A DNA stretch of 64,000 nucleotides from Gemmatimonadota bacterium. GTDB taxonomy: Bacteria > Gemmatimonadota > Gemmatimonadetes > Gemmatimonadales > GWC2-71-9. Positions 20,762 to 27,962 of this stretch are shown piece after piece. The stretch lies in the NCBI GenBank assembly GCA_003220795.1, contig QHTK01000049.1, positions 1 through 64,000 of the forward strand. The letters are read 5' to 3'. The notes below the pieces were generated by a model. That model did not search any database, was not told where the DNA came from, and saw only the letters and a program-made list of their open reading frames with translations. Position 1 is the stretch's first letter. Each line of letters starts with the position of its first letter. Made by a program: the position numbers and the translations under genes.

Positions 20762-21465
20762 TGGGACGAACGAATCAAGGTTGGAAGGTTGGACGGTGGC
20801 TGCTCCTTTCCATCCTTCCGGCCTTGCACCTTTCCGCTCAGGTCGGCCACGAGCCTTCGCACTCGCCCTACCACGATATCCGCCGGGGCGGGGTCGGCGT
20901 GATCACGGTTGGTTATCTGGGTGGCTCGCGGGGGGGCCCCGGGGTCGGGATCTCGGATGGGCCGACCGGCGGGCTGCGCTACGAGGTGGCCTTCGGGAAC
21001 GCGCTGGGCGCCTCCCTCGGGATCGCCTACGCGCAGACGACGCGGTTCGTCGTGGACCCGACCAAGGACTCCCTGTCGCGTCGCACCGGTCCGTTCAATA
21101 CCGACGTCGTGCTCGCCGATGTGGCGCTGCAGCTCGCCCTCACCGGCCGCAAGACGTGGCACGGCTTTGCGCCCTACCTGGGAGGCGCGTTCGGCGCGGC
21201 GATCGGCGGCGGCTCGCCGCCTGATCCGACCGGGTACGACTTCGGCACGAAGCTGACCGTCGCGCCGGGAGCGGGGCTGCGATGGTATCCCGCGCGGCGC
21301 GTGTCGGTCCGAACCGATTTCCGCCTGGTGCTGTGGCGGCTCAAGTACCCTCTCGACTACAAGAACCCGTCCCCCGACGGCAGCCGCGTGCTGCCGCTCA
21401 CCGCCCCGCTCACCGAGTGGACCGCCCATCCCTGGATCACGATTGGCCTGGGGTGGACTTTCTAG
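20761..21465 (+). CDS. Predicted outer-membrane beta-barrel protein
   Basis: The 234-residue product starts at ATG 20761, sharing its first base with the gpmI stop. A signal peptide (core LLLSILPALHLSAQ) is followed by alternating beta strands rich in Gly and aromatic residues, ending in ITIGLGWTF with a terminal Phe, the usual beta-barrel sorting signal. The amino end is encoded by an inverted pair of 8-base repeats at 20774-20836. It precedes and overlaps the tungstate-type permease gene, so it may provide an outer-membrane path in the same system, but that is inference only. Confidence 0.7.
   Translation: MGRTNQGWKVGRWLLLSILPALHLSAQVGHEPSHSPYHDIRRGGVGVITVGYLGGSRGGPGVGISDGPTGGLRYEVAFGNALGASLGIAYAQTTRFVVDPTKDSLSRRTGPFNTDVVLADVALQLALTGRKTWHGFAPYLGGAFGAAIGGGSPPDPTGYDFGTKLTVAPGAGLRWYPARRVSVRTDFRLVLWRLKYPLDYKNPSPDGSRVLPLTAPLTEWTAHPWITIGLGWTF
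20774..20836. repeat. Inverted pair of 8-base repeat arrays inside a signal-peptide region
   Basis: From 20774 three plus-strand 8-base units of the type TGGAAGGT run to about 20797. After a short centre, four units of the complementary type (CCTTTCCA, TCCTTCCG, GCCTTGCA, CCTTTCCG) run from 20805 to 20836. The repeat encodes residues 5-25 of the outer-membrane protein in frame, including most of its signal peptide. Confidence 0.65.
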
Positions 21466-22148
21466 GGGAGGGCCTGCGGCGCGCCTTCGCCCTCTTGCTC
21501 GGGGGCGACGCCGAAGTGAGCGGCGTCGTCTTGCTCACCTTGAAGGTCGCCGTCACGGCCACGCTGATCGCGTGCGCCTTCGGCCTGCCACTCGGCTTTT
21601 TCCTGGCGACCCGTCCGTTCTGGGGACGCCGCGCGGCGTTTACGCTCGTCAACACCGCGCTCGCCTTCCCCACCGTCGTCACCGGCTTGCTGCTGTTCGG
21701 CCTCCTGTCCCGGCGCGGGCCGCTGGGGGGCGTGGGGTGGTTGTACACGTGGCAGGCGATCGCGCTGGGCGACGTGTGCATCGCGCTCCCGATCGCCGCG
21801 GCGCTGTCGGCCGCGGCGGTTCAAGGAGTGGACCCGCGGATCCGCCGCACCGCCCAGACCCTCGGCGCCTCGGCGTGGCGCACGGCGTGGGCGGTCGCGC
21901 GCGAAGCGCGCTTCGCGCTGGCGGCGGTGATCACCGCCGCCTTCGGTCACGTGATCGCGGAGATCGGCTCCGCCATGATGGTCGGCGGCAACATCCGCGG
22001 CTCGACCCGGACCCTCACCACGGCCATCGCGCTCTACACCGGCCAGGGCGACTTCGGGCTGGCGCTCGCGCTCGGCGTCATCCTGCTGGTGCTCGCGCTG
22101 CTCGTCAACATCGCCCTGCAGGTGCTCCAGGGCCAAGGTCATGCTTGA
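21453..22148 (+). CDS. Tungstate/molybdate-type ABC transporter permease (TupB-like)
   Basis: The 231-residue protein has about five to six membrane helices and the inner-membrane permease EAA-like loop: RRTAQTLGASAWRTAWAVARE near residue 135. A GHVIAEIGSAMMVGGNIRGSTRTLTTAIALY stretch, characteristic of TupB/WtpB-like anion permeases, follows. GTG 21453 overlaps the end of the outer-membrane protein gene by 13 bases. It overlaps the ATPase gene start by 8 bases. No periplasmic binding protein (TupA) gene is adjacent. The tungstate versus molybdate preference cannot be read from the sequence. Confidence 0.82.
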   Translation: MDFLGEGLRRAFALLLGGDAEVSGVVLLTLKVAVTATLIACAFGLPLGFFLATRPFWGRRAAFTLVNTALAFPTVVTGLLLFGLLSRRGPLGGVGWLYTWQAIALGDVCIALPIAAALSAAAVQGVDPRIRRTAQTLGASAWRTAWAVAREARFALAAVITAAFGHVIAEIGSAMMVGGNIRGSTRTLTTAIALYTGQGDFGLALALGVILLVLALLVNIALQVLQGQGHA

Positions 22149-23157
22149 GCTCGTGGGCGTGCGCCACCGCTATGCGGCGCGCGTGGTCCTGGACCTGGAC
22201 CGGTTCGCCATCCCGCCGGGAGCCCTCATCGCGATGGTGGGACCCAACGGCTCGGGCAAGAGCACCTTGCTCCGGCTCCTCGCCCTGCTCGAGCGGCCGA
22301 GCGAGGGCGAGGTGCGGCTCGACGGCAAGGCCGTTTCCGGCGGACCGGCGCACGTCCGGCCCGGCACGGCGGCGCGCCGCCGGGTCACGCTGGTCGAGCA
22401 GCGGCCGATTCTGCTGCAGGGAACGGTCCGTGATAATATCGGATTCGGATTACGGGCGCGGGGGATGAGACGGGCAGAGGTGAACAGGTTGATAGAACAA
22501 GTCGCCGCGCGGCTCGGCGTGACGCCGCTGCTGGAGCGCCGCCGCCACGAGCTGTCGGAAGGCGAAGTGCAACGCGTCGCCGTCGCCCGCGCGCTCGCCG
22601 TCGAGCCCCAGGTCCTGCTGCTCGACGAGCCGGTGAGCTCGGCCGACCGCGCGGCGGCGCAAACGCTGTACGCCGCGCTGCGCGAGGAGCGCAGCCGCCG
22701 ACCGCTCGCCATCTGCCTCGCGTCGCACCAGCTCGAGGACGCCTACCGCTGGGCGGACGATGTGCGCGCCCTCGCCGAGGGGAAGCTCTCGCCCGTGACC
22801 CCCGAGAATCTGTTTCGCGTCGAGCTGCCGCAGACCGGCGCGGGGGACCTGAAGCACGTGCGCGTCGGCACGATCGAGATCGCCGCGATGACCGACAAGA
22901 CGGGGCCCGCGATCCTCGCCGTGCCGCCCACCGACATCCTGGTGAGCCGGGAGCCCCTCGCGTCTTCGGCGCGGAACGCGTTCCGCGGGCGGGTCACGCG
23001 GCTCGCCCGACAGCGTCCCGGAGCCGTGCACGTGACAGCGGACGTAGGGGTGGAGCTCGTCGCGGTGGTCACGGAAGAGGCCGCCCGCGATCTCCAGCTC
23101 ACGCCGGGGAGCCCGGTGGTGCTGGCGTTCAAGGCCAATGCGGTGCGGGTGTTCTAG
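22141..23157 (+). CDS. ABC transporter ATPase with C-terminal TOBE/MOP-like domain (TupC-like)
   Basis: The 338-residue ATPase has Walker A GPNGSGKST near residue 35, signature LSEGEVQRVAVARAL near 137, Walker B VLLLDEPVSSADRA, and ASHQLEDAYRWADD after it. Its last 70 residues (FRGRVTRLARQRPGAVHVTA to VLAFKANAVRVF) look like the TOBE/MOP oxyanion-binding domain used for feedback by molybdate and tungstate importers. It overlaps the permease gene by 8 bases, forming an importer core. The downstream cofactor genes support molybdate or tungstate as substrate. Confidence 0.85.
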   Translation: MLELVGVRHRYAARVVLDLDRFAIPPGALIAMVGPNGSGKSTLLRLLALLERPSEGEVRLDGKAVSGGPAHVRPGTAARRRVTLVEQRPILLQGTVRDNIGFGLRARGMRRAEVNRLIEQVAARLGVTPLLERRRHELSEGEVQRVAVARALAVEPQVLLLDEPVSSADRAAAQTLYAALREERSRRPLAICLASHQLEDAYRWADDVRALAEGKLSPVTPENLFRVELPQTGAGDLKHVRVGTIEIAAMTDKTGPAILAVPPTDILVSREPLASSARNAFRGRVTRLARQRPGAVHVTADVGVELVAVVTEEAARDLQLTPGSPVVLAFKANAVRVF

Positions 23158-23159
23158 GG

Positions 23160-23579
23160 ATGCCGATCAGCTATCTTACGCGTATCGTTGAGTTTACCGC
23201 GACGCACCGGATCCGGCGCGCCGACTGGACCGACCAGCAGAACCGAGCCGAGTTCGGCAAAGCGGCCGTTGATCACAGCCACCGCTACCAGTGCCGGGTC
23301 ACCGTGCAGGGACGGCTCGTGGCCGAGGCGGGTGGCGTGATGAGCCTGGCGGCGCTCGACGTCCTGCTCGCCGCGGAAGTGACCGCGCGGCTCGACGGGC
23401 GCAGCATCAATGACGCGTTGCCGGAGTTCGCGGACGGCCGGCGTCTCGCCACCGGTGAAGCCCTGGCCGTGTACGTCTGGGAACGACTTGCCGCGCGGCT
23501 GCCGCCGGGCGTGACATTGCACGCCGTGCGCGTGCAGGAAGGGTCGCACATTTACTCGGAGTACTTCGGTGAACGCTGA
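23160..23579 (+). CDS. QueD/6-pyruvoyltetrahydropterin-synthase-like protein lacking catalytic residues
   Basis: The 139-residue protein belongs to the tetrahydropterin synthase/6-carboxytetrahydropterin synthase fold: EFTATHRI gives the first zinc His, DHSHRY gives the other two, and VRVQEGSHIYSEYF gives the conserved Glu near the end. However, the position of the usual catalytic Cys, four residues before the first His of the HxH pair, is Ala (FGKAAVDHSH). The usual LDH motif of the Asp-His dyad reads LDG. The zinc site is therefore kept and the proton-transfer residues are not. It lies 2 bases after the tupC-like gene and before fdhD, not among queuosine genes. A non-canonical pterin role is possible but unproven. 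Confidence 0.8.
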   Translation: MPISYLTRIVEFTATHRIRRADWTDQQNRAEFGKAAVDHSHRYQCRVTVQGRLVAEAGGVMSLAALDVLLAAEVTARLDGRSINDALPEFADGRRLATGEALAVYVWERLAARLPPGVTLHAVRVQEGSHIYSEYFGER

Positions 23580-23586
23580 CCCATTA

Positions 23587-23608
23587 ACCCCGGGCTTGCG
23601 CCCGGGGT
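23587..23608. repeat. REP-like palindrome with CCCCGGGC arms
   Basis: A perfect 9-base inverted repeat (ACCCCGGGC and GCCCGGGGT) around the loop TTGC lies between the QueD-like stop and the fdhD start. The same element with loop TCAC occurs at 30341-30362. There is no T-run, so a simple intrinsic terminator is unlikely. Confidence 0.8.
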
Positions 23609-23646
23609 CAGCGCCAGCGCACGCCGCCGGCTCCCGGAGGGGCCGG

Positions 23647-24366
23647 ATGCTCGCCGACTCGGCCGTGGTCGAGGAGTGGCCCGTGTGGCTCGAAGTGAAC
23701 GGCGCGCCGGCGGTGACGTGGATGTGTACGCCCGACCAGCTGGAAGAGCTGGCGACCGGGTGGCTGCACGGCGAGGGCTACATCGAGACGCTCGACGACC
23801 TCGTCAAGCTGCGCCCCTGCGCGACGGATCTCGGTTTCTGGGCGGAGGTGAAACCGGAGCGCGTGACGCTGGTGCAGGGCGACGAACGGCGCCGGGTGCT
23901 CGCGTCGGGGTGCGGCGCGGTGTCCACCTTCCTGGCTGATCCGCCCGCGGTGCGGCACGCACCCGCCCGGCGCGAGCCCCCCTCTCCGGAGAACTTGCGG
24001 GCACTCTTCAAGGAGCTGTTCGCCCGCGGCGCGCGCTACAACGAGACCGGCGGAATCCACGCCGCCGCCCTGACCGACGACGCGGCGCTTCAGTTCCACG
24101 CCGAGGACATCGGGCGGCACAACGCCGTGGATAAGGTGATCGGCGCCGCCGTAATCGCGCGACACCCGATCGCCGGCCGGGGACTGCTCGTCACGGGCCG
24201 CATCTCGGCCGAGCTGGCGCATAAAGCAGCCCGCGCCGGCCTCGCGTACGTCGCGACGCCCAGCGTCCCGTCCACGCTCGCGCTCACGGTCGCCCAGCGC
24301 GCGGGCATGGTGCTCGTCGGACGCGCGGTGAGCGGGACGCCGCACATCCACCGGCCGGACGCATGA
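23647..24366 (+). CDS. fdhD: FdhD-family sulfur carrier for formate dehydrogenase
   Basis: FdhD passes sulfur from a cysteine desulfurase to the molybdenum cofactor and is needed for active formate dehydrogenase. The protein (239 residues from ATG 23647) has PDQLEELATGWLHGEGYI, then the Cys loop LASGCGAVSTF near residue 85, TGGIHAAAL, EDIGRHNAVDKVIG and GRISAELAHKAARAG. The Cys loop has a single Cys where E. coli has a CxxC pair. ATG 23647 has an excellent GGAGGGG site; an earlier GTG (23569) would read through the palindrome and is rejected. The gene overlaps the next one in ATGA. Confidence 0.92.
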   Translation: MLADSAVVEEWPVWLEVNGAPAVTWMCTPDQLEELATGWLHGEGYIETLDDLVKLRPCATDLGFWAEVKPERVTLVQGDERRRVLASGCGAVSTFLADPPAVRHAPARREPPSPENLRALFKELFARGARYNETGGIHAAALTDDAALQFHAEDIGRHNAVDKVIGAAVIARHPIAGRGLLVTGRISAELAHKAARAGLAYVATPSVPSTLALTVAQRAGMVLVGRAVSGTPHIHRPDA

Positions 24367-24773
24367 ACCCGGAGGCGCTGCGCGCCCTCCTGCGGGAAGC
24401 GACGACGATCGCGATCGTAGGCCTGTCGCCCAAGCCCTGGCGGGCCAGCCATCAAGTGGCGCGATACCTCCAGGAGGCCGGCTACCGCATCGTACCGGTG
24501 AACCCCGAGCACGAGGCCGTGCTCGGCGAGCGGAGCTACCCGTCGCTCACCGCGGCCGCGGCGGCGGGCTCCATCGATGTCGTAGACGTGTTCCGGCGCA
24601 GCGAGTTCGCGGGTGCGATCGTGGACGAGGCGATCGCCGTGCAGCCCCGTCTGATCTGGCTGCAAGTCGGCGTGGTGGACCCCGCGGCGGGGGGGCGTGC
24701 AGCCGCCGCCGGCATCCCGTGCATCATGGACCGCTGTCTCATGGTCGACCACCAGCAACTGCTCGAGGTGTGA
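24363..24773 (+). CDS. CoA-binding (YccU-like) domain protein
   Basis: A 136-residue single-domain protein with the CoA-binding Rossmann fold: TTIAIVGLSPKPWRASHQVARYL near residues 15-37, GYRIVPVNPEH, VDVFRRSEF, and PRLIWLQVGVVD followed by GIPCIMDRCLMVDH. These YccU-like proteins bind coenzyme A but have no settled physiological role. The ATG overlaps the fdhD stop, so it is coupled to the cofactor genes. Confidence 0.85.
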   Translation: MNPEALRALLREATTIAIVGLSPKPWRASHQVARYLQEAGYRIVPVNPEHEAVLGERSYPSLTAAAAAGSIDVVDVFRRSEFAGAIVDEAIAVQPRLIWLQVGVVDPAAGGRAAAAGIPCIMDRCLMVDHQQLLEV

Positions 24774-25592: not shown

Positions 25593-26192
25593 GTGCGCGC
25601 GGCCGTCCTCGCCGGCGGCGCGGCACGCCGCTACGGCGGCCGTCCCAAAGGGCTCGTCGCACTCGGCGGGCGACGCATCCTCGACCGCGTGGTGGACGCG
25701 GTGCAAAGCGTCGCGGGCGAGTCGCCGCTGCTCGTCGCCAACGCCCCCGACGCGTCCACTTGGCGTCCCGACCTCCGCACGGTGCCCGACGTGCGCCCGG
25801 GGTGCGGCAGCCTGGGTGGGATCTATACGGCGGTCGTGTCGGGCTCCGGCCCGGTGCTGTGCGTGGCGTGGGACATGCCCTTCGTGAGTCCCGAGCTGTT
25901 ACAGGCGCTGCGGGATGGTGCCGCCGGCTGTGACGCCTACCTCCCGGAGAGCGGCTCGCGGCGCGGGGTCGAGCCCCTATGCGCCGTGTACGGCCCGGCG
26001 TGCGGCCCCGCTATCGAGCGCCAGCTGGCCGGGGGCGACCTGCAGGCGATCGGCTTCCACCGGTCCGTGAAGGTCGGTACACTACCCCTCGAGCGCGTCC
26101 GGGCGTTCGGCGACCCGGCCGTGCTGTTTTTCAACGTGAACACGCCGGAAGACCTGGAGCAGGCGGAGGCCCTGTGGCGGCGACGCGCATGA
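25593..26192 (+). CDS. mobA: Molybdenum cofactor guanylyltransferase
   Basis: MobA attaches GMP to molybdopterin to give the guanine dinucleotide cofactor used by formate dehydrogenase and related enzymes. The 199 residues show the nucleotidyltransferase motif LAGGAARRYGGRPKGLVALGG at the N-terminus, the GGIYTAV turn, AWDMPFVSPELL with the metal-binding Asp near residue 95, and EPLCAVYG. GTG 25593 is the earliest start that gives the proper N-terminus and follows the previous stop by 2 bases. It overlaps mobB by 4 bases. Confidence 0.93.
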   Translation: MRAAVLAGGAARRYGGRPKGLVALGGRRILDRVVDAVQSVAGESPLLVANAPDASTWRPDLRTVPDVRPGCGSLGGIYTAVVSGSGPVLCVAWDMPFVSPELLQALRDGAAGCDAYLPESGSRRGVEPLCAVYGPACGPAIERQLAGGDLQAIGFHRSVKVGTLPLERVRAFGDPAVLFFNVNTPEDLEQAEALWRRRA

Positions 26193-26707
26193 TCTCGATC
26201 ATCGGGCGCAAGAACGCCGGCAAGACCACCCTGCTCGTGGCCCTCGCGGCGGAGCTGGTGCGTCGCAAGTTCCGGGTTATGACCATCAAGCACGGCACCC
26301 ACCCGGCTGACATGGACCAGCAGGGCAAGGACACCTGGCGGCACTGGCACGAGGGGAAGGTCGAGCGGGTGCTGATGGAGGCCCCTGGCGAGCGCGTCCT
26401 GTTCGAGCGCACCCCGCAGGAGTCCGACCCGATCACGCTTGCCCGACGCTACCTCGACGGCGCAGACATCGTCCTCGTGGAGGGGTTCAAGCGCGCGCCG
26501 CTCCCCAAGGTCGAAGTGTATCGGCTGGTCGCTGGCCCGGAGCCGATCTTCGACGCCGCGGCCCATGACCCCGAGGATTGGGTCGCGATGGTCACGGACC
26601 ACCCGCGCTACCGCGCCGAGTTTCCCGTGTTCCGCTTCTCCGACACCGCGTGGCTCGTGACGCTGGCCAACCTGGCGTGGGACCGCGCCAAGATTCTGGC
26701 GCCGTGA
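26189..26707 (+). CDS. mobB: Molybdopterin-guanine dinucleotide biosynthesis GTP-binding protein
   Basis: This 172-residue P-loop protein starts MISIIGRKNAGKTTLL, giving Walker A GRKNAGKTT. It continues with TIKHGTHPADMDQQGKDTWR and DIVLVEGFKRAPLPKVEVYR, all typical for MobB. MobB assists MobA in guanylating the cofactor but is usually dispensable. The start ATG overlaps the mobA TGA in ATGA, and moeA follows after a single base. Confidence 0.93.
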   Translation: MISIIGRKNAGKTTLLVALAAELVRRKFRVMTIKHGTHPADMDQQGKDTWRHWHEGKVERVLMEAPGERVLFERTPQESDPITLARRYLDGADIVLVEGFKRAPLPKVEVYRLVAGPEPIFDAAAHDPEDWVAMVTDHPRYRAEFPVFRFSDTAWLVTLANLAWDRAKILAP

Positions 26708-26708
26708 G

Positions 26709-27962
26709 ATGCTGACCCCGCCCGAAGCGGCGCGCACCATCCTCGAGCACGTCGCGCCGCTCCCCACCGAGCGCCGGCCACTCAAAGAGGCGCTCGACCT
26801 GGTGCTCGCCGAGGACGTCATCAGCCCGATCGACCTGCCGGGCTGGGACAACTCGGCGATGGACGGCTACGCGGTCCGTGCCGAGGACGTCGGCGGCGCC
26901 ACGCCGGAGCGCCCCGTCACGCTCGCGGTGATCGAGACCGTCCCCGCGGGCCGCTTTCCCGCGAAGCCGGTGAGTGCGGGCGAGACGGTCCGGATCTTCA
27001 CGGGCGCGCCGCTTCCCGCGGGCGCCGACACCGTGATCCGCCAGGAGGACACCGAGCCGCTCGAGGGCGGCCGCGTCGCTGTGCGCGACGGCCGGGACGC
27101 CCGCAAGAACATCCGCCACCGCGGCGAGGATATCCGGACGGGAGCCGTCGCGCTCGCGACAGGCACCGCGCTCGGCCCCGCGCAGCTCGGGGTGCTCGCC
27201 TCGATCGCTCACGCTGCGCCCCTGGTGCATCGCCCGCCGCGGGTCGCCTTCCTGGGCTCAGGGGACGAGATCGTCGACTTAGACCACGCCGACGAGATCC
27301 TCGCCGGGACGAAAATCGCGACGTCGAACTCCTACACCCTGTTCGGCTCGATCCTCAGGGCCGGCGGGGTACCGCTCGACCTCGGCGTGGCTCGCGACAC
27401 GAAGCAAAGCCTGCGCGACCACCTCGCTCGGGCTCGGGAGGCCGACCTCCTAGTCACCACGGCCGGGGTCAGCGTGGGCGAGCACGACCTGGTGCGCGCC
27501 GTGCTCACCGAGCTCGGCTGCGACATGAAGCTGTGGCGCATTCGGATGCGTCCCGGCGCCCCGCTCGGGTTCGGGCTGCTCGACGGCAAGCCGTGGATCG
27601 GGCTCCCGGGGAACCCCGTGAGCACGATGGTGACGTTCGAGCTGTTCGTGCGCCCAGCGATCCGCAAGATGCTGGGGCACGCGTTGCCATTTCGGCGCGC
27701 CGTGCCGGTGTGCGTGGTCGAACCGATCACCCTCGGCCCCCGGCTGCGCCACTTCCTGCGGGCCGTGGTCAGCCCCGCGGACGGAGCGGGAGCGCTCACG
27801 GCGCGCTTGACGGGCCCCCAGGGTTCCGGCATCCTCACGTCCATGGCCCGCGCGAATGCGCTCCTGATCGTGCCGGAAGACCGTGCGTCGGTTGCGCCCG
27901 GGGAGACGCTCCGGGCCCTGCTCCTGGACGATCCGCATCACGTCGCCGAGGCGCCGTTCTAG
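26709..27962 (+). CDS. moeA: Molybdopterin molybdenumtransferase
   Basis: MoeA inserts molybdate into adenylylated molybdopterin. The 417-residue protein shows DNSAMDGYAVRAEDV near residue 50, AETVRIFTGAPLPAGADTV-type sequence near 95, IVDL and NSYTLFGSILRAGG in the MoaB-like domain, TTAGVSVGEHDLVR, and LPGNPVSTMVTFELFVRP near 300, followed by the C-terminal beta domain. It starts one base after mobB and completes the late-cofactor set. The early genes for precursor Z and molybdopterin are not in the window. Confidence 0.95.
   Translation: MLTPPEAARTILEHVAPLPTERRPLKEALDLVLAEDVISPIDLPGWDNSAMDGYAVRAEDVGGATPERPVTLAVIETVPAGRFPAKPVSAGETVRIFTGAPLPAGADTVIRQEDTEPLEGGRVAVRDGRDARKNIRHRGEDIRTGAVALATGTALGPAQLGVLASIAHAAPLVHRPPRVAFLGSGDEIVDLDHADEILAGTKIATSNSYTLFGSILRAGGVPLDLGVARDTKQSLRDHLARAREADLLVTTAGVSVGEHDLVRAVLTELGCDMKLWRIRMRPGAPLGFGLLDGKPWIGLPGNPVSTMVTFELFVRPAIRKMLGHALPFRRAVPVCVVEPITLGPRLRHFLRAVVSPADGAGALTARLTGPQGSGILTSMARANALLIVPEDRASVAPGETLRALLLDDPHHVAEAPF

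Follow-up and report, generated by a model that had tools for sequence, protein, structure and literature searches.

Genes at the locus

The window, a 64,000-nucleotide stretch of a contig from a Gemmatimonadota MAG, holds a gene for a 139-residue protein of the PTPS/QueD fold that lacks the catalytic Cys and His (Table 1). It is the third gene of an operon that runs from a TupB/ModB-like permease and an ATPase through the PTPS-like gene to fdhD, a CoA-binding protein, mobA, mobB and moeA. Its ATG follows the ATPase stop by 2 bp, and its 3' side abuts or overlaps fdhD: the GTG start of fdhD gives an overlap, and an internal ATG is a possible alternative start. An earlier note, made from the sequence without database searches, had placed the gene between a tungstate/molybdate importer and fdhD, and the profile searches agree, with the TupB/ModB-like permease and the WtpC/ModC-like ATPase on one side and fdhD on the other.

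As a matter of routine, annotation labels COG0720 proteins PTPS or QueD. The window protein belongs to this COG0720/PF01242 superfamily: it scores 71.7 bits against the Pfam PTPS profile PF01242 (gathering cut-off 22.4), carries the three zinc His and has a T-fold, its AF2 model matching PTPS. In a scan of genome contigs that detects close relatives only, all matches were from Gemmatimonadota; a plasmid search gave no match.

Three further observations concern the surroundings. A GC-rich inverted repeat, ccccgggcttgcgcccgggg (window 23580-23610), stands right behind the stop of the PTPS-like gene, ahead of fdhD. At window 20779-22148 the permease/ATPase pair has no directly adjoining gene for a substrate-binding protein. 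Almost all of the loci read have, upstream, a gene that by eye is of outer-membrane type.

Table 1 Features of the molybdenum-cofactor operon and of the PTPS-like protein, in window coordinates
Feature	Position	Strand	Basis
TupB/ModB-like ABC permease, start uncertain	21435..22148	+	NF038017 211.6 bits; TupB NF041773 193.6 bits, below its cut-off 320
ModC/WtpC-like ABC ATPase with TOBE domain	22141..23157	+	profile matches
PTPS/QueD-fold protein without catalytic Cys and His, 139 aa	23160..23579	+	ATG start; PF01242, alignment, census, AF2 model
His16, zinc ligand 1	23205..23207	+	conserved in 128/128 orthologues, intact and dead
Ala35, replacing the nucleophilic Cys (QueD Cys27 / PTPS Cys42)	23262..23264	+	alignment, census
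His39-Ser-His41, zinc ligands 2 and 3	23274..23282	+	alignment, census
Asp79-Gly80, where the triad has Asp-His	23394..23399	+	alignment, census
Glu100, invariant residue	23457..23459	+	census
Glu127, pterin-anchor Glu (QueD Glu110)	23538..23540	+	alignment, census
fdhD	23569..24366	+	PF02634 184.2 bits
CoA_binding_2 protein, conserved operon member	24363..24773	+	PF13380; synteny
mobA-like guanylyltransferase, start uncertain	25593..26192	+	profile matches
mobB	26183..26707	+	TIGR00176 105.3 bits, above cut-off
moeA	26709..27962	+	profile matches

Active site, fold and relation to known families

We assigned residues from an alignment that included E. coli QueD and some 130 relatives. The earlier note had read the three zinc His and the pterin Glu as kept, the nucleophilic Cys as Ala and the His of the LDH motif as Gly; the alignment identifies these residues as H16, H39, H41 and E127, and as Ala35 and Gly80, with Asp79 of the LDH motif retained.

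The AF2 model of the protein (pLDDT 96.9, pTM 0.90) has human and rat PTPS as its best PDB matches (3i2b and 1gtq, TM 0.90). The original label "QueD-like" is thus right as to superfamily, but the fold is nearer to PTPS than to QueD, which makes "PTPS-like" the better name. The likeness to PTPS-II (human and rat PTS) extends to the fold, the three zinc His, the pterin Glu and an FGK segment at 33-34% identity, whereas the triad Cys and His are replaced, two residues are deleted ahead of HxH, and the gene lies in a molybdenum-cofactor (moco) locus rather than in the folE-SDR locus of PTPS-II. The PTPS-II motif CxxxxxHGH (PMC5041015) with its Asp-His is absent from the window protein. With QueD, the 6-carboxytetrahydropterin synthase (PTPS-I), the protein has in common the PF01242 family, the zinc site and the +4/+6 spacing from the Cys position to HxH; it differs in lacking the Cys of CxxxHGH and the LDH His, and reaches 34.5 bits against the QueD model TIGR03367 (equivalog cut-off 89.25). 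As in PTPS-III, the malarial type with Glu for Cys (ExxHGH), the Cys is replaced, but the residue three positions ahead of HxH is Ala rather than Glu and the LDH His is lost too. PTPS-V is a COG0720 subfamily of unclear function (PMC5041015); the likeness here is that of an uncharacterised COG0720 subgroup, in a comparison made without a PTPS-V motif. Our literature search found neither a moco-linked PTPS nor a dead PTPS pseudoenzyme, and nothing on SCO6650. We are not aware of any member of the PTPS family that handles Moco.

Loss of the catalytic residues among orthologues

We scored the Cys and His in 131 orthologues from the same locus in the window's order: 76 are intact, 52 have lost both residues (hereafter dead) and 3 are mixed. 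By family, there are 51 dead and 8 intact copies in the window's own family (f1), 63 intact, 1 dead and 2 mixed in f2, and 5 intact and 1 mixed in f3. In most of f2 the gene at this locus presumably specifies an active enzyme, so a dead protein is no requirement of the locus. The 52 dead and 76 intact copies at one locus form a clean natural set on a pterin synthase that stops being an enzyme.

In the dead set R8, A14, H16, H39, H41, E100 and E127 are invariant (52/52). The Cys site holds A, L, T, V or a gap, and the His site is Gly in 50 of the 52. Such a double loss in 52 orthologues from some 20 genera, all of them with unchanged binding residues (100%), and a dN/dS near 0.18 go beyond chance. 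The latter value, obtained for the PTPS-like gene in the window's clade, compares with 0.03-0.21 for the neighbouring moco genes, so the gene is maintained and not decaying. A large lineage within one order has thus lost the catalytic residues of a PTPS and kept its binding site under selection, in a molybdenum-cofactor operon.

To follow the dead state we built a tree of 97 rows across the phylum with the trait columns excluded. The best tree has five changes, at least three of them forced by well-supported branches; within the order alone the best tree needs three, of which only one is forced by such branches. Judged by these trees, the dead state has several origins within the phylum. The independent pairs were too few for an assessment of correlated Cys and His loss. 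Triad-dead relatives also occur outside any moco locus in two other families, f9 (L101, L102, L105, L108) and f5 (L125, L126), with other substitutions: A with HN, ND or DQ, and Q with EG.

A putative pterin-binding pseudoenzyme

Residue losses, invariant binding residues, purifying selection, predicted fold and conservation of the locus within the order can all be read from the sequences, and from them we infer, with a probability of roughly 45%, that the window protein is a non-catalytic zinc- and pterin-binding pseudoenzyme derived from PTPS-II that acts stoichiometrically. Lacking the Cys/Asp/His triad, it should be unable to carry out the reaction of PTPS or of QueD. Binding of a reduced 6-substituted pterin, by contrast, is expected to persist and is plausible for the window protein, since it retains the T-fold, the His3 zinc site and the Glu to which the pterin ring is anchored. 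Acting as carrier, buffer or sensor, the protein would hold the reduced pterin for the enzymes encoded alongside it; the ligand might perhaps be an intermediate of Moco or the dihydroneopterin related to it. The small protein encoded among the moco genes of these soil Gemmatimonadota is probably a pterin-binding protein, and it offers a candidate, open to testing, for a factor that holds pterin near MoeA.

A more doubtful reading is that of an enzyme with changed chemistry, in which the zinc site and some other residue catalyse a different pterin reaction. The zinc site is wholly kept, the nearly uniform change of His to Gly suggests a selected pocket shape, and in Plasmodium PTPS the exchange of Cys for Glu gave a new product (PMC2229834). 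The earlier note had named alternative catalytic residues in the family alignment as the finding that would speak against its view. When all columns were scanned for ionizable or hydroxyl residues that are fixed among the dead copies and not among the intact ones, only R124 and an acid at position 134 stood out, and no substitute was evident. The acid is present in all 52 dead copies and R124 is enriched (92% of the dead set against 41% of the intact); acid 134 acting with R124 would be one candidate. The acid also occurs, however, in the intact f1 and f3 orthologues read and was thus retained rather than gained. Nothing replaces the Cys either: three positions ahead of HxH the dead copies mostly have A, P, T or S, also V, and the Glu of the malarial type in only 3 of 52. 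We accordingly set the replacement residue aside, and the non-catalytic pseudoenzyme remains our preferred reading.

Linkage to molybdenum-cofactor genes

Within the order the association with moco genes is extensive. The gene lies at a moco locus in about 132 of 151 genomes, and 119 of the 135 best hits are within 4.8 kb of moeA; several of the remaining best hits fall at contig ends or represent the canonical paralogue. In many genera the gene sits inside the operon, and in the window's clade it stands tightly between modC and fdhD in several genera. About 19 of the 151 genomes are without the gene, and those examined retain the moco operon. The earlier note's tie to molybdopterin handling, for which a lack of moco association elsewhere was to count as refutation, is borne out in part: the locus is conserved within the order, but in four other families of the phylum the relatives lie away from moco genes, and gene order and the genomes without FdhD also weigh against it.

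As to gene order, gpmI and the outer-membrane-type gene are linked to the PTPS-like gene as strongly as the moco genes are. The gpmI-omp-PTPS-moeA block is conserved as a whole across the order, and inherited gene order hence explains much of the moco linkage. Five loci (L204, L215, L227, L237 and L240) keep the block even though they no longer contain modBC, fdhD, mobA or mobB. In family f2 (L069, L070, L081-L083 and L087), a gene that looks by eye like a DacB-type D-Ala-D-Ala carboxypeptidase lies between the PTPS gene and moeA.

As to FdhD, 17 of the 20 listed genomes without it keep the gene. Among those that keep it are six of genus g4, where nothing but the PTPS gene and moeA is left at the locus. 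Dead copies, too, are retained where FdhD is missing altogether. Because the gene survives in such genomes, a role specific to formate dehydrogenase is not supported and is unlikely; the protein may have a link to MoeA or to general pterin handling.

The same data bear on the reading that the protein binds pterin or acts as a regulator with no relation to molybdenum, its position being inherited gene order. The block that outlasts the loss of the other moco genes, the families without moco neighbours and the retention in genomes without FdhD all point this way, against which stand the tight placement between modC and fdhD in the window's clade and the persistence of the gene beside moeA even where the locus is most reduced. 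We consider this reading unlikely. Somewhat less probable still is a narrower role, that of a carrier of molybdopterin (or Mo-molybdopterin) passing the cofactor to MoeA or MobA; here Glu127 would serve as the anchor of the pterin, the His3 zinc would bind the side chain or dithiolene, and Gly80 and Ala35 would give room.

Paralogues and the rest of the genome

Most genomes of the order have a separate canonical PTPS-II, which in the loci read adjoins folE and/or the gene of an SDR reductase, at times with a QueD-type gene. The window genome (assembly 92% complete) has none and appears to have lost it. On one of its contigs (G000:C36, L159:1399-2759) folE is followed by the SDR gene with PTPS-II missing, as in a truncated PTPS-folE-SDR operon. 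The sole other COG0720 protein of this genome (L001) is distant, of different length, and has the motif CETLHGH, a PTPS-I/III hybrid by the criteria of PMC5041015.

The claim that the window protein is not a queuosine enzyme stands. Both catalytic residues are absent, the score is below the QueD cut-off, separate COG0720 paralogues exist, and QueC has only a below-cut-off match in the window genome (E 8.5e-4), its absence being likely but, at 92% completeness, not certain. With QueC below cut-off and the paralogues at hand, a queuosine role is very unlikely; the paralogues and the missing QueC likewise led us to reject a BH4 role.

The PTPS catalytic triad is intersubunit (Burgisser 1995, as cited in PMC2229834). 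Since the active site thus lies between subunits, it is conceivable that the window protein is a subunit pairing with an active COG0720 paralogue, for which the CETLHGH protein would be at hand; with no canonical PTPS-II in the genome, where the folE-SDR pair stands without it, and the remaining paralogue distant and unlike in length, such pairing is highly improbable. That the gene is a decaying relict, as its clean absence from some relatives with an intact operon might suggest, is scarcely credible: the copies read have open frames, the binding residues are invariant and dN/dS is near 0.18.

The window genome also encodes a formate dehydrogenase alpha subunit (G000:C90:7443-9095, L162) in which an in-frame TGA takes the place of the selenocysteine codon (...QARIUHSSSVPGLG...); a selenoprotein formate dehydrogenase is therefore probable in this organism. 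A second formate dehydrogenase, of the Cys type, is on C20 (L161).
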